Assembly (NCBI RefSeq): GCF_001439665.1
Contig: NZ_LMAK01000020.1
Coordinates: forward strand, 1-50,355
Reading direction: 5' to 3'
Length of the DNA: 50,355 bases
DNA from: Formosa algae
GTDB lineage: Bacteria; Bacteroidota; Bacteroidia; Flavobacteriales; Flavobacteriaceae
Shown: piece after piece, positions 2,408 through 6,195 of the stretch
How positions within the stretch are numbered: position 1 is the stretch's first letter
Layout: each line of letters starts with the position of its first letter
Made by a program: the position numbers and the translations under genes
Notes under the pieces: generated by a model
Database searches by the model: none
The model's input: the letters and a program-made list of their open reading frames with translations, nothing else
What the model was told of the DNA's origin: nothing

Positions 2408-3007
2408 TTACAACTTAATCACATGCGCCACCACACCTTGTACTTTAAAGTCGGTTGTTAAAATAATAGGCTGATGTTTCGGATTTGTAGAATGCGGTTT
2501 TAAGACTATTGTACTGCCATTGCGTACAAATTCTTTTACCGTGGCATCATCATCTAATAAGGCTAAAACCAAATCGCCAGTTTCAGCAGTATACTGTCGT
2601 TTAATTAATAATAAATCGCCACTATCAATGCCTTTGGTATTCATGGAATCTCCAGCAGCTCGTAGTAAAAAATAGTCTGCAGCGTTTTTAACCAATTGTG
2701 TAGAAATTGGAATTTTAGCTTCTATATGGGCTTCTGCAAAAACAGGTAATCCACAGGCGACAGCACCTATTAAAGGAATTTCAACAGTATCACTTTCTCC
2801 GGTATTATTGTAAACGTCCTTATTAACATCTAATAAGTCTCGGGCTTCAACATTCAGAATATGAGCAATCTCGTACAACATCTCAATACTGGGTTGCCTC
2901 CTATTTTGCACATAAGCATTCACCATATTATAGCTTTTATTTAGCTTTTCTGCCAACCAAGTTTGTTTGATGCCTTTGTCTTCTAAAACGGCTTTAATAC
3001 GATTCAT
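2408..3007 (-). CDS. LexA/UmuD-like self-cleaving repressor (XRE HTH + peptidase S24)
   Basis: Numbering is from the longer possible start at 3028 (206 residues). Residues 8-62 form a Cro/C1-type helix-turn-helix (KQTWLAEKLNKSYNMVNAYV). Residues 83-206 form a LexA-like S24 peptidase: a cleavage site at Ala91-Cys92-Gly93, nucleophile Ser128 (GDSM) and general base Lys165 (ATVKEF). The Ser-Lys distance of 37 matches LexA and UmuD. Such proteins repress genes until RecA filaments trigger self-cleavage. I prefer the ATG at 3007 because a good -7 box (TATATTTG, minus strand, 3032-3039) lies so close to 3028 that the first ATG would fall at or before the transcript start. The gene is divergent from a radical SAM DNA repair gene, with a palindrome between them. 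No function beyond repression is shown; it could also be a prophage-type regulator. Confidence 0.9.
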   Translation of the reverse strand: MNRIKAVLEDKGIKQTWLAEKLNKSYNMVNAYVQNRRQPSIEMLYEIAHILNVEARDLLDVNKDVYNNTGESDTVEIPLIGAVACGLPVFAEAHIEAKIPISTQLVKNAADYFLLRAAGDSMNTKGIDSGDLLLIKRQYTAETGDLVLALLDDDATVKEFVRNGSTIVLKPHSTNPKHQPIILTTDFKVQGVVAHVIKL

Positions 3008-3031
3008 ATTTAATCTATTGATATTCAACTA

Positions 3032-3039
3032 CAAATATA
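3032..3039 (-). promoter_or_regulatory. -7 promoter box of the repressor gene
   Basis: On the minus strand the bases read TATATTTG, a full match to the Bacteroidetes -7 consensus TAnnTTTG. The matching -33 TTG is not perfect (TGA at about the right place). The box ends 4 bases before the ATG at 3028, so transcription would start about there and translation from the ATG at 3007 is more likely. Confidence 0.55.
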
Positions 3040-3052
3040 ATGAATTCATAAT

Positions 3053-3075
3053 AGTATATCATATTATGAGATACT
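3053..3075. promoter_or_regulatory. Candidate operator: 23-bp near-perfect palindrome
   Basis: The half-sites AGTAT-n-TCATA and TATGA-n-ATACT are complementary except for one mismatched pair around a central base. An overlapping inverted repeat, TCATAATA (3046-3053) with TATTATGA (3062-3069), adds a further TCATA half-site. The site covers the -33 area of the repressor promoter and lies 92 bases before the radical SAM gene. Autorepression and repression of the divergent operon are the natural reading, by inference. Confidence 0.6.
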
Positions 3076-3166
3076 TTTTATTACTATTTTGAGCTTTTTT
3101 ATTAACATCACCCCTTTTTTATAAGATTAGATTGTATCTTTACGGCTTAAACTTAAACACTTAAGA

Positions 3167-4429
3167 ATGTCTTTTGAACGGGTACAGGAAAAACTAAATA
3201 TTCTTGCAGATGCTGCTAAATACGATGTGTCTTGCTCTTCTAGCGGAAGTAATAGAACCAATACGAATAAGGGATTAGGTAATGCTTCAAATTCTGGAAT
3301 TTGCCATACCTATACCGAGGATGGCCGATGTGTATCCTTATTAAAAATACTGCTTACTAACCATTGTATATTCGACTGTGCGTATTGTGTCACTCGTAAA
3401 AGTAACGACATTAAACGGGCCGCATTTCAGGTACAAGAGGTCGTAGATTTAACTATAAACTTCTACAGACGAAATTATATTGAAGGCCTATTCCTGAGTT
3501 CTGGTATCTTTAAGAGTGCCGATTATACCATGGAACGCTTGGTATCTGTGGCCAAAAAGTTAAGACTAGAAGAAAACTTTAATGGGTATATTCATTTAAA
3601 ATCTATTCCAGGTGCTAGTGACGAACTGATGCGTGAAGCGGGATTATATGCAGACCGATTGAGTGTAAATATTGAAATTCCGACAAAAGAAGGTTTAAAA
3701 TTATTGGCTCCGGAGAAAAATAGAGCCGATTTTATTAAACCTATGGAAAAGGTGAAAAATGAAATCATTCAATATAAAAGTGAAAAAAAACTGATTAAAA
3801 GCACTCCCAAATATGCGCCTGGCGGACAAAGCACACAGATGATTGTGGGCGCTAGTGGCGAAAACGACATGCAAATCATGTACACCTCCAATTACTTTTA
3901 TAAGAATTTTAATTTAAAACGGGTGTATTATTCAGGCTACGTCCCTATTAGTTACGATACGCGATTACCACAAATCGGTACACCAGTGCCCATGTTACGC
4001 GAAAATAGATTATATCAGACCGATTGGTTATTGCGATTTTATGGTTTTAATATTGAAGAAATATTAAATGTAGATCATCAGCATTTAGATTTAGATATTG
4101 ATCCAAAATTAGGTTGGGCGCTACGGAATTTACATGAGTTCCCGGTAGATGTGAATAAAGCCGATAAACGTATGTTGGCCAGAATTCCGGGCTTAGGAAT
4201 GAAATCGGTGTTTAAAATATTAAATGCCAGACGCTATAGACAACTCAATTGGGAACATTTAAAAGCGATTGGTGTGTCCTTAAATCGGGCAAAATACTTT
4301 ATGATTTGTGCATCTAACCAATTTGAAAGTCGAGATTTAACGGCTGAAAAAATTAAAGGGTTAATTCTGCAAAACTCCAAAAGTAAATATACCGACATGT
4401 TGAGTAACCAACTAAACCTGTTTGGATAA
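3167..4429 (+). CDS. Putative DNA modification/repair radical SAM protein (TIGR03916-like)
   Basis: A 420-residue protein. Cys67, Cys71 and Cys74 form the CX3CX2C radical SAM cluster motif (HCIFDCAYC). The TIM-barrel core runs to about residue 260. A helix-hairpin-helix element near residues 335-360 (ARIPGLGMKSVFKILNARR) suggests binding to DNA. This arrangement and the pairing with a DUF4130 gene match the family named putative DNA modification/repair radical SAM protein, which elsewhere sits beside, or beside a fusion with, a uracil-DNA-glycosylase-like domain. The reaction is not known. It is six bases ahead of its partner gene and divergent from a LexA-like repressor, so damage-inducible expression is inferred. 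Spore photoproduct lyase is a distant relative but does not share this context. Confidence 0.88.
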   Translation: MSFERVQEKLNILADAAKYDVSCSSSGSNRTNTNKGLGNASNSGICHTYTEDGRCVSLLKILLTNHCIFDCAYCVTRKSNDIKRAAFQVQEVVDLTINFYRRNYIEGLFLSSGIFKSADYTMERLVSVAKKLRLEENFNGYIHLKSIPGASDELMREAGLYADRLSVNIEIPTKEGLKLLAPEKNRADFIKPMEKVKNEIIQYKSEKKLIKSTPKYAPGGQSTQMIVGASGENDMQIMYTSNYFYKNFNLKRVYYSGYVPISYDTRLPQIGTPVPMLRENRLYQTDWLLRFYGFNIEEILNVDHQHLDLDIDPKLGWALRNLHEFPVDVNKADKRMLARIPGLGMKSVFKILNARRYRQLNWEHLKAIGVSLNRAKYFMICASNQFESRDLTAEKIKGLILQNSKSKYTDMLSNQLNLFG

Positions 4430-4435
4430 CACCTT

Positions 4436-5200
4436 ATGGAAACTACACTGATTTACGATGGCACATTTGATGGTTTTTTAACGGCTGTTTTTACGGCATA
4501 CGAGATGAAACTGAAAGCAGTTGTTATTGTCAACCAACAACAGTTTCAGCAGCCTTTATTTGGTACAACTGAAACCGTGTACACCGATCAGGAGAAGGCA
4601 AATCGGGTGTGGAAGGGCTTAAAAACCAAAATGTCGTCTAATGAATTACGCCGTTTGTATTATGCGTTTCTAAGTGAAAAACCGAGCGTAGAACACACTT
4701 TATATCAGGCTATTTTATATGTGTTTGCATCTAAAACCAATGTGGCTTCAGATTATACCAATCCACATATCCTTGAAGTCTCTAAACTCACAAAAAATGT
4801 AGGACGCGAAAAACACCGGATGGAAGCCTTTGTGCGCTTTAAACTCACCAAAGACGGGATTTACTTTGCCAATATAGAACCTGATTTTAATGTGTTACCA
4901 CTTATAAAAAATCATTTCGAAAGGCGCTATGCCGACCAAAAATGGCTGATTTACGATTTAAAACGGAAGTACGGCATCTATTACGATTTAGAAAACGTGG
5001 AGTTAATTACGCTAGATTTTGGAGACGACTTCGATCCCTCTAAAACAGATCCAAACCTATTTGCAGCGATAGAATTAGAATTTCAGCAATTATGGAACGA
5101 CTACTTTAAAAGTACAAACATCAAGTCTAGAAAAAATATGAAACTGCATATACAACACGTGCCTAAACGTTATTGGAAATATTTAAGCGAAAAACAGTAG
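4436..5200 (+). CDS. DUF4130-type DNA metabolism protein, partner of the rSAM enzyme
   Basis: A 254-residue protein that opens METTLIYDGTFDGFLTAVF, the usual start of the DUF4130 family (TIGR03915, linked to the rSAM protein). Middle conserved text includes VGREKHRMEAFVRFKLTKDG and FERRYADQKWLIYDLKRKYG. In many bacteria this domain is fused to a uracil-DNA-glycosylase-like domain; here the length and the ending MKLHIQHVPKRYWKYLSEK show only the DUF4130 part, with no glycosylase in the window. It starts six bases after the rSAM stop, so the two are co-transcribed and probably act together on damaged or modified DNA. The biochemical role is unknown. Confidence 0.85.
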   Translation: METTLIYDGTFDGFLTAVFTAYEMKLKAVVIVNQQQFQQPLFGTTETVYTDQEKANRVWKGLKTKMSSNELRRLYYAFLSEKPSVEHTLYQAILYVFASKTNVASDYTNPHILEVSKLTKNVGREKHRMEAFVRFKLTKDGIYFANIEPDFNVLPLIKNHFERRYADQKWLIYDLKRKYGIYYDLENVELITLDFGDDFDPSKTDPNLFAAIELEFQQLWNDYFKSTNIKSRKNMKLHIQHVPKRYWKYLSEKQ

Positions 5201-5595: not shown

Positions 5596-6195
5596 TTAAT
5601 AATACAATCTAAAATCAAGTAATTTACAAAGCGCATAATGTTTTTGATGTAACTCCTCTACAACCTCTAGCATATCATCGTCTTCATTAAATAAATTGAA
5701 GAACACTTGATCCAAGTTTAAGCTATCTATGCCATTATAAAAATTACCATAACCAGAAACACCTCTTGCTCCTGTGATATCTAAAAAATATTGTGCGTCT
5801 TCTTCATCTAAATCAAGAATTTTAGCGTTAGAAAAATGTAAAATTTTGCCTTGTAAACGCCCTTCAAAAATTTCGGCTACTTCTTGTAGACTATAATGGT
5901 AATCGTTTAAACAAATCGTGTTATTTGCTCCCGACATTACCAAGTAGATGATTTCATAATCCGTAAAATGATGATCGTCTAAAACCAAACTATTTAAGCT
6001 CTCCTCTAGCCCTTCTATGGTATCGCAGGTTTTATAGATACTTGCTATGCCAAATTTTTGAACCAAATGTTCTAAGCTCTCTTGCGCTTTGGTAACGGTA
6101 TCAGTATCTATATCGGGAACCCCTTCTAAGCAGTAAATGAAATACTCTGAATCGGTTACTGTGTTTGGAGAATGTTTCGGCTGTTGTTCTAACAC
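5596..6195 (-). CDS. Conserved hypothetical protein, DUF6642-like
   Basis: A 199-residue soluble, acidic protein with no signal peptide. It has FIYCLEGVPDI near the N-terminus, EIIYLVMSGANN in the middle and GKILHFSNAKILDLDEEDAQYFLDITGARGVSGYG towards the C-terminus. This order (CLEG, then a hydrophobic strand with a small-residue loop, then a HFS/CS-like turn and a GA..VSGYG motif) recalls the DUF6642 family, which has a caspase/CHAT-like fold in outline; the expected His and Cys catalytic residues are not evident here. Function is unknown. It is boxed in by family A repeats on its downstream side. Confidence 0.6.
   Translation of the reverse strand: MLEQQPKHSPNTVTDSEYFIYCLEGVPDIDTDTVTKAQESLEHLVQKFGIASIYKTCDTIEGLEESLNSLVLDDHHFTDYEIIYLVMSGANNTICLNDYHYSLQEVAEIFEGRLQGKILHFSNAKILDLDEEDAQYFLDITGARGVSGYGNFYNGIDSLNLDQVFFNLFNEDDDMLEVVEELHQKHYALCKLLDFRLYY

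Follow-up and report, generated by a model that had tools for sequence, protein, structure and literature searches.

To understand how a radical SAM (rSAM)/DUF4130 gene pair might be controlled in Formosa algae, a 50,355-nucleotide stretch of its genome (contig NZ_LMAK01000020.1 of assembly GCF_001439665.1, positions 1 to 50,355; hereafter the window) was analyzed. In this window a repressor gene of the self-cleaving type (2408–3007, minus strand) lies divergent from the genes for a 420-amino-acid rSAM protein (TIGR03916; 3167–4429, plus strand; 670 bits against a cut-off of 343.5) and a 254-amino-acid DUF4130/TIGR03915 protein (4436–5200, plus strand; 293 bits against a cut-off of 112). The question raised by this locus is whether the repressor is a switch that belongs to the pair and responds to DNA damage. 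The genes, the cleavage residues, the conservation of the operator, the clades and the gene contexts are described below as they were observed. Together they suggest, with a probability of about two in three, that the rSAM/DUF4130 operon has in this repressor a local SOS switch of its own, including RecA-triggered cleavage and action on the rSAM promoter. The SOS control of an operon of this type in Bacteroidetes is already in print (PMC8565304), and hence it is not new; the new part is the switch.

The repressor and its operator

The open reading frame (ORF) of the repressor spans 2408–3028 on the minus strand and could be extended to a TTG at 3028, but the ATG at 3007 was taken as the start, because the relatives begin at MNRIK. 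The resulting 199-amino-acid protein consists of a Cro/C1-type helix-turn-helix (HTH) domain (HTH_3, 2837–2998, 38.8 bits in Pfam) and a Peptidase_S24 domain of the UmuD/LexA type (2429–2776, 95 bits), both encoded on the minus strand. The initial annotation had credited this protein with the full LexA/UmuD self-cleavage set, and each of its elements was found on that strand: the predicted cleavage site Ala84-Cys85-Gly86 (2750–2758), the catalytic Ser121 (2645–2647), and the catalytic Lys158 (2534–2536), placed 37 residues after the serine. All 15 aligned relatives have Cys85, Gly86, Ser121, and Lys158, and 14 of them also have Ala84. The host genome contains three S24 proteins, which are the window repressor, a UmuD-like protein with its gene next to a Y-family polymerase gene, and a 255-amino-acid HTH and S24 protein with its gene next to an exonuclease/GIY-YIG gene. 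RecA gave one match in this genome.

The 23-bp palindrome AGTATATCATATTATGAGATACT at 3053–3075, with the core TATMTCATNNNATGAKATA at 3055–3073, was previously placed between the divergent genes and over the promoter of the repressor, and this location holds: 10 of 11 positions pair, the operator centre lies 25 bp upstream of a putative −7 box of the repressor promoter (TATATTTG, 3032–3039, minus strand), and 71 bp separate it from a putative −7 box of the rSAM promoter (TATCTTTA, 3135–3142, plus strand). The consensus TAnnTTTG is the −7 box of Bacteroidetes promoters, and the operator would then cover the −33 region of the repressor promoter. Such a box is located 25–26 bp from the operator in eight of the nine loci in which a repressor of this type is linked to an rSAM gene, while the rSAM promoter carries TTGTAKCTTTR in 9/9 of them.

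The operator proved to be conserved, as the initial annotation required of a true binding site. The core is kept in five close loci, two of Formosa and three of Cellulophaga, in which much of the intergenic DNA varies. Upstream of all 14 full-length repressors combining an XRE-type HTH with an S24 domain (XRE-S24), TATMTCATNNNATGAKATA is matched at 18–19 of 19 positions, with its centre 54–59 bp before the repressor ATG. The 19-bp pattern was drawn from the first loci seen, the window site included; four loci found after it had been fixed (L215, L216, L217, and L218) all score 19. The window operator also scores 19/19, compared with at most 16 in 1973 random 150-mers of the window. In the host genome the operator occurs with 0–1 mismatch at one place, and with two mismatches at nine places versus seven for the reversed control. 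Because of this single occurrence the repressor looks dedicated, with a private operator and a single target, and a wider regulon of the repressor in the host genome was ruled out on the same ground.

The distance between the operator centre and the rSAM −7 box is 71 bp in five rSAM-linked loci, including the window, and 50 bp in the other four. Hence, there are two values on this side, versus six for the distance from the operator to the repressor ATG. A second full operator over the rSAM promoter was rejected, as the second-best sites found with a position weight matrix scored at the level of shuffled controls. Helical phasing, which the fixed 21-bp step could indicate, is not proven, as in the window the longer form contains the T-rich segment CTTTTTTAT again in an imperfect copy, with a period of 20 bp (read by eye). 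Since the segment is repeated, a duplication or deletion could explain the 71/50-bp step. Inspection by eye also detected a half-site, TGAG or TGAT, some 14 bp beyond the operator in 5/9 rSAM-linked loci (the window, L003, L115, L116, and L217) and in 5/5 loci linked to the cyclic oligonucleotide-based antiphage signaling system (CBASS). The window has a putative half-site TTTTGAG at 3087–3093.

The place beside the rSAM gene

To describe how common this arrangement is, the best 80 of at least 578 candidate rSAM relatives in titled genome records were compared. The nearest upstream ORF was read in 79 loci, which with the window gives 80; L070, which lacks upstream DNA, was excluded from the motif and neighbor counts, and also from the tree of rSAM proteins; for L037, N makes up 100 of the 250 upstream bases. 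In the rSAM gene of L070 (150–1409, Algoriphagus ratkowskyi) the reading frame is interrupted by a stop at codon 203, which points to either a pseudogene or a sequencing error. The search of other Bacteroidetes for the three-gene neighborhood, which the initial annotation had proposed, did find it, but showed it to be rare. A window-type repressor lies within 5 kb of rSAM in the window and in five of the best 80 loci, and the three-gene neighborhood is present in 4 of 397 sampled genomes of the family, the own genome included. Three further genomes (L115, L116, and L217) have the arrangement of repressor and rSAM, which brings the total to nine rSAM-linked loci, and in each of these the repressor and rSAM genes are divergent.

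The gene that follows the repressor on the same strand differs among these loci. It encodes PDC-S46 in L006 (1831–4005, 825 bits), Ppl in L115 (1906–4736; two ORFs, with 227 and 80 bits), a GHKL protein weakly similar to restriction endonucleases in L004 (1983–3974, 23 bits), DinB followed by a DnaE-type polymerase in L005 (<2671–3888), a LytTR protein in L116, and a secreted-type protein in L002. In the window the next gene behind is an ORF of 114 amino acids without a family match, 415 bp on; the repressor heads no defense operon on its own strand here, and its divergent gene is rSAM.

The nearest upstream ORF is the window-type repressor in 5 of the 79 loci, and in 14 of them the same place beside rSAM is held by an unrelated divergent repressor of about 255 amino acids of the HTH and S24 type. 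All 14 are full-length homologs of the L066 protein (57%–100% identity), in which the S24 domain was confirmed by Pfam. GGA-N5-TCC sites lie between the repressor and rSAM in 14/14 of these loci, 20–89 bp upstream of the rSAM ATG. This motif was found within 250 bp of rSAM in 15 of 74 loci without the window-type repressor and in none of the six with it, while four control patterns were found in 0–1 of the 74. The opposite was observed for TCAT-N3-ATGA, which is near rSAM in 6/6 loci with the window-type repressor and in 2/74 without. The nine window-type loci form one clade (Shimodaira–Hasegawa-like approximate likelihood ratio test, SH-aLRT, 86) among the 83 rSAM proteins of a tree in which the two repressor types are unmixed. 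The fact that two unrelated repressors of the self-cleaving type occupy the same divergent place argues that damage control of the operon has been selected for in those lineages.

Kinship with LexA, restriction, and defense regulators

The HTH_3 domain (PF01381) followed by a C-terminal S24 domain, the Ser/Lys pair, the cleavable bond, and the palindrome at the own promoter are features which the repressor shares with the non-canonical LexA proteins of Bacteroidetes, as described by Sanchez-Osuna et al. 2021 (PMC8565304). These fall into two clusters, with the motifs GGA-N5-TCC and CTAA-N5-TTAG, and an rSAM/UDG-type operon, named COG1573-COG4277, is among their predicted targets in the SOS network. 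Relatives of the GGA class, of the L066 type, are those found divergent from rSAM in the 14 loci described above. On the other hand, the window repressor ends with its S24 domain at residue 199, and so, judged by its length, it lacks the terminal helix of the non-canonical LexA; it also appears to have one target in place of a multi-gene SOS regulon. When LexA-cluster membership was judged by way of L066 and the 255-amino-acid protein of the host genome (L084), in place of the reference proteins of PMC8565304 itself, the window repressor did not match L066 significantly in BLASTP (E 1.3) and matched L084 over 34 amino acids of the HTH only (E 2e-4), while L066 and L084 matched each other (E 9e-16). 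GGA-N5-TCC and CTAA-N5-TTAG were each absent within 250 bp of rSAM in the six window-type loci. These BLASTP and motif results ruled out that the repressor is the known LexA of the phylum, and by sequence and motif it appears to belong to neither published Bacteroidetes LexA class. The canonical LexA model TIGR00498 was matched just below its cut-off (110.8 versus 110.95 bits) by the C-terminal half only, and the winged HTH of canonical LexA (PF01726) was not found in the repressor, which has HTH_3 instead.

A winged-HTH LexA-like S24 gene directly before recA was observed in L222 (5122–7123), L224 (4511–6255), and L225 (3868–5700), which belong to one genus of the class and have RecA confirmed by Pfam; by contrast, PMC8565304 reports an absence of LexA homologs from Bacteroidetes.

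The first 60 or so residues of the repressor are 64%–80% identical to stand-alone XRE proteins of 63–80 amino acids without an S24 domain, which resemble the C-protein-like regulators of restriction-modification systems. Among 11 of the best-matching stand-alone regulators, nine are located ahead of genes for DNA methylases, type I restriction-modification subunits, or restriction-type helicases, one is near a DUF3800 gene, and one near a GHKL ATPase gene. The helicase of L124 also matches a defense model (403 bits), and in L133 one gene lies between the regulator and the methylase gene. The operator was found at a score of at least 17/19 at five of these 11 genes, while six are without it. 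As the HTH half has restriction-type kin and the S24 half is LexA-like, the repressor reads as a chimera. A small XRE regulator 74.6% identical to the repressor HTH is also present in Tenacibaculum phage PTm1 (L251, 1773–4205), between genes annotated as a restriction-modification methylase and a type II endonuclease; upstream of it is a variant dyad, TACTCAT-TTG-ATGAGTA, with 13/19 of the operator pattern. A phage- or plasmid-borne origin of the whole repressor was rejected: in the records listed (12 of 30 for plasmids, 12 of 41 for phages) identity is only 28%–35% among the matches that cover 80% or more of the query. Three phage records with 60%–80% identity match the HTH only, and the matches in viral contigs are at 24%–47%.

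The picture given by the initial annotation did not include that the nearest kin of the repressor guard antiphage operons. When 299 genomes of the family, taken as Flavobacteriaceae, were searched with the window protein, 10 strong matches were obtained (at least 157 bits, own genome included), three beside rSAM/DUF4130 and seven heading an operon of CBASS or of Pycsar (pyrimidine cyclase system for antiphage resistance). A profile built from these 10 proteins and those of L002–L006 (E ≤ 1e-40) matched 15 of 397 family genomes, which were the earlier 10 with one more rSAM locus, three CBASS loci, and one at a contig end. Hence, the family total is four rSAM contexts, 10 CBASS or Pycsar contexts, in all of which a cyclase was called by PADLOC, and one unreadable. 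Eight further genomes were found among 395 of the class, with one CBASS, one Avs4 (461 bits), one ThsB (200 bits), three genes before recA, one NTPase of the KAP type (31 bits to PifA) where the contig ends, and one unclear context. Among 395 genomes of the phylum, where 20 places were fetched from 55 matched genomes, there was one more at that level, a CBASS. The contexts of L219 and L220 (contig ends) were left unjudged, and that of L227 is ambiguous. All five full-length XRE-S24 relatives outside rSAM loci (L117, L118, L215, L216, and L218) head CBASS operons. As a control, 19 lower-scoring phylum loci (L176–L194, 96–125 bits) encode LexA-like proteins, and no CBASS was seen among their neighbor ORFs, which were read without a profile scan; 15 of the 19 share a uppS-like gene within the stretch, and a Y-family polymerase gene lies near L189 and L194. 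The nine rSAM-linked repressors group together in the S24 tree (95/98), within a larger clade of 29 rows (100/99) that also contains defense- and recA-linked proteins.

S24 repressors with the cleavage residues, having either an XRE-type or a winged HTH, are located upstream of CBASS or Pycsar operons, on the same strand, in twelve loci: L117 (5562–9320), L118 (5926–9232), L119 (3755–6234), L120 (7455–10524), L121 (2850–5687), L122 (5899–10972), L123 (4819–9421), L175, L215, L216, L218, and L226. Some of these operons carry patatin, E1-E2/JAB, or HORMA and TRIP13 genes. The same S24 line also stands before an Avs4-like gene (L223, 5365–11001) and before a ThsB-type TIR gene (L228, 4420–5939). 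The S24 repressors before CBASS and Pycsar operons possibly represent a further family of damage-responsive immune regulators, as judged by their sequences. The damage-responsive regulators CapW/BrxR, CapH with CapP, and CapK/CapS likewise stand before CBASS, Pycsar, and other immune operons, which are de-repressed upon DNA damage (PMC13373217). The relatives described here differ in that they are predicted to be single-protein repressors with cleavage residues of their own, and no S24/LexA-type CBASS regulator was recognized in the titles and opening lines of abstracts among the papers listed, or in passages of PMC13373217 and PMC9122588. An ImmR/cI-like repressor of an integrative and conjugative element is the subject of PMC10233336, which also mentions CBASS.

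The operon, the proposed switch, and its alternatives

The rSAM protein carries the CX3CX2C cluster motif (Cys67/71/74; 3365–3388, plus strand), which is invariant in 37/37 sequences. The helix-hairpin-helix attributed to it in the initial annotation corresponds to a helix-hairpin-helix-like segment at residues 326–356 (4142–4234, plus strand), which scores below the Pfam cut-off (21.1 versus 27), but where a profile matches RuvA (E 5e-4). The DUF4130 gene starts six bases past the rSAM stop, and no glycosylase domain was found in its 254-amino-acid product, both as first described. We take TIGR03916-TIGR03915 (rSAM_link_UDG) to be the same two-gene operon as COG4277-COG1573, and the rSAM protein to be of the COG4277 type; the window would then differ from that operon in its DUF4130 protein without a uracil-glycosylase domain, and in its private regulator. 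The predicted model of the rSAM protein was poor (predicted local distance difference test, pLDDT, 58). That of DUF4130 (pLDDT 85) matched the DHH-family phosphatase 8a8k (E 4e-5, template modeling score 0.43, root-mean-square deviation 7) and, weakly, RecJ-type DHH proteins, which is a weak hint of a DHH-like fold. This likeness is a lead only, because the DUF4130 consensus is without the DHH motif; the DUF4130 profile matched no solved structure up to E 1. The signature of UdgX, which is GEQPG in motif A and KRRIH in the R-loop (PMC10359453), was not found in the two proteins of uracil-DNA glycosylase (UDG) fold detected in the host genome, which carry GQAPG and GQDPY and have no KRRIH. It has been suggested that DUF4130-linked enzymes might modify thymines (PMC3765255), and COG1573-COG4277 is treated as a base-excision-repair pair in PMC8565304; no reaction for the pair was found in the scarce literature covered that names DUF4130 or COG4277.

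Downstream of DUF4130, on the other strand, a DUF6642 relative (window 5596–6195) is present in 6/8 loci with the same repressor (L002–L006 and L115), and was absent from the stretches covered in L116 and L217. Between 5220 and 7263 the window contains seven copies, on both strands, of the 18-bp TTCTCGACTCCGCTCGAA with 0–1 mismatch (none in 100 shuffles), a dispersed intergenic repeat around the DUF6642 gene and a phosphatase gene.

We propose that a repressor dimer bound to TATMTCATNNNATGAKATA would block its own promoter and hold down the divergent rSAM promoter. Upon DNA damage, RecA filaments would induce the repressor to cut itself at Cys85-Gly86 by means of Ser121 and Lys158, the HTH dimer would leave the operator, and the rSAM and DUF4130 proteins would be made and could act on damaged or modified bases. 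The switch may be a chimera of the HTH of restriction-type small regulators and the S24 domain of a LexA-like line found mostly ahead of CBASS, Pycsar, Avs, or ThsB genes, and in the clade including Formosa and Cellulophaga it fills the place which a GGA-class LexA-type repressor holds in other genera. The binding, the cleavage, the action on the rSAM promoter, and the damage signal are the steps that we infer. Repression of its own gene is likely, because the operator adjoins the −7 box of that gene; repression of rSAM is less certain because of the distance and the single operator, although the conserved divergent layout and the parallel GGA arrangement speak for it. Control of the operon by damage is supported by the unrelated repressor with GGA-N5-TCC sites in 14/79 loci, and by PMC8565304, which places the orthologous COG1573-COG4277 operon in the Bacteroidetes SOS network. 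Thus, the dedicated SOS-type switch first proposed gains from the cleavage residues, the conserved operator, and its single occurrence in the genome, while the SOS link of the two families turned out to have been published.

Several observations weigh against such a switch. As 50–71 bp lie between the operator and the rSAM −7 box, and a second full operator was not found, rSAM might escape control. The three-gene neighborhood is rare, and therefore not a rule for the operon; 60 of the 80 loci (window and 79) have neither repressor beside rSAM, and therefore local control is not essential for it. Among these 60, GGA-N5-TCC was found in one (L044), and CTAA-N5-TTAG was not found within 250 bp of rSAM in any of the 80 loci. 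None of the three motifs occurs in the 142 bp covered upstream of the host umuC. The S24 tree leaves the inner order and the older context unsettled, nor does it group the CBASS-linked XRE-S24 proteins with those linked to rSAM.

In one alternative, the repressor would control only itself and, in some genomes, the genes behind it, with rSAM as a chance neighbor using its own promoter, either unregulated or regulated in another way. The position of the operator, 25 bp from the −7 box of the repressor but 71 or 50 bp from that of rSAM, the lack of a second full operator, and the defense- or SOS-like genes behind it in L006, L115, L004, and L005 are consistent with this explanation, which we nevertheless regard as unlikely: the divergence from rSAM is kept in 9/9 loci, although the other flank of the repressor varies in its genes, the spacing to the rSAM −7 box takes two values versus six toward the repressor ATG, and in 14/79 loci this position is occupied by a repressor of an unrelated type.

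It is improbable that the known Bacteroidetes LexA controls rSAM here too, which would make the local repressor redundant. The genome does encode a 255-amino-acid HTH and S24 protein beside a GIY-YIG exonuclease gene, similar to the published group, but neither LexA motif was found near rSAM in the six window-type loci, within 256 bp upstream of the gene of the 255-amino-acid protein, or in the 142 bp before umuC. The kinship of both repressor halves with defense regulators, and the PADLOC matches behind the repressor, strong in 2/9 loci (L006 and L115) and weak (23 bits) in L004, would fit an antiphage element, in which a defense-type switch drives rSAM/DUF4130 as a DNA-modifying effector. 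PADLOC matches neither the rSAM nor the DUF4130 protein, however, most close relatives have the pair without such a switch, and the two families are tied to repair and SOS in PMC3765255 and PMC8565304, which makes this explanation very improbable.

The dedicated damage switch also has a wider context. The presence of this switch line ahead of CBASS, Pycsar, Avs, and ThsB genes suggests a further route from damage to immunity beside CapW, CapH/CapP, and CapK/CapS. It is conceivable, and we put it forward tentatively, that single-protein S24 repressors link the RecA damage signal to antiphage immunity (CBASS, Pycsar, Avs, and Thoeris-like) in Bacteroidota, that they arose from HTH domains, including restriction-type ones, joined to a LexA-like switch, and that in Formosa and Cellulophaga one was placed before rSAM/DUF4130, which would make the pair a damage-induced base modifier or repair enzyme tied to phage- or restriction-inflicted damage. 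If the repressor is indeed a private switch, deleting or freezing this one protein would change only the rSAM/DUF4130 operon, and the phenotype of the operon would be readable apart from the rest of the SOS response.

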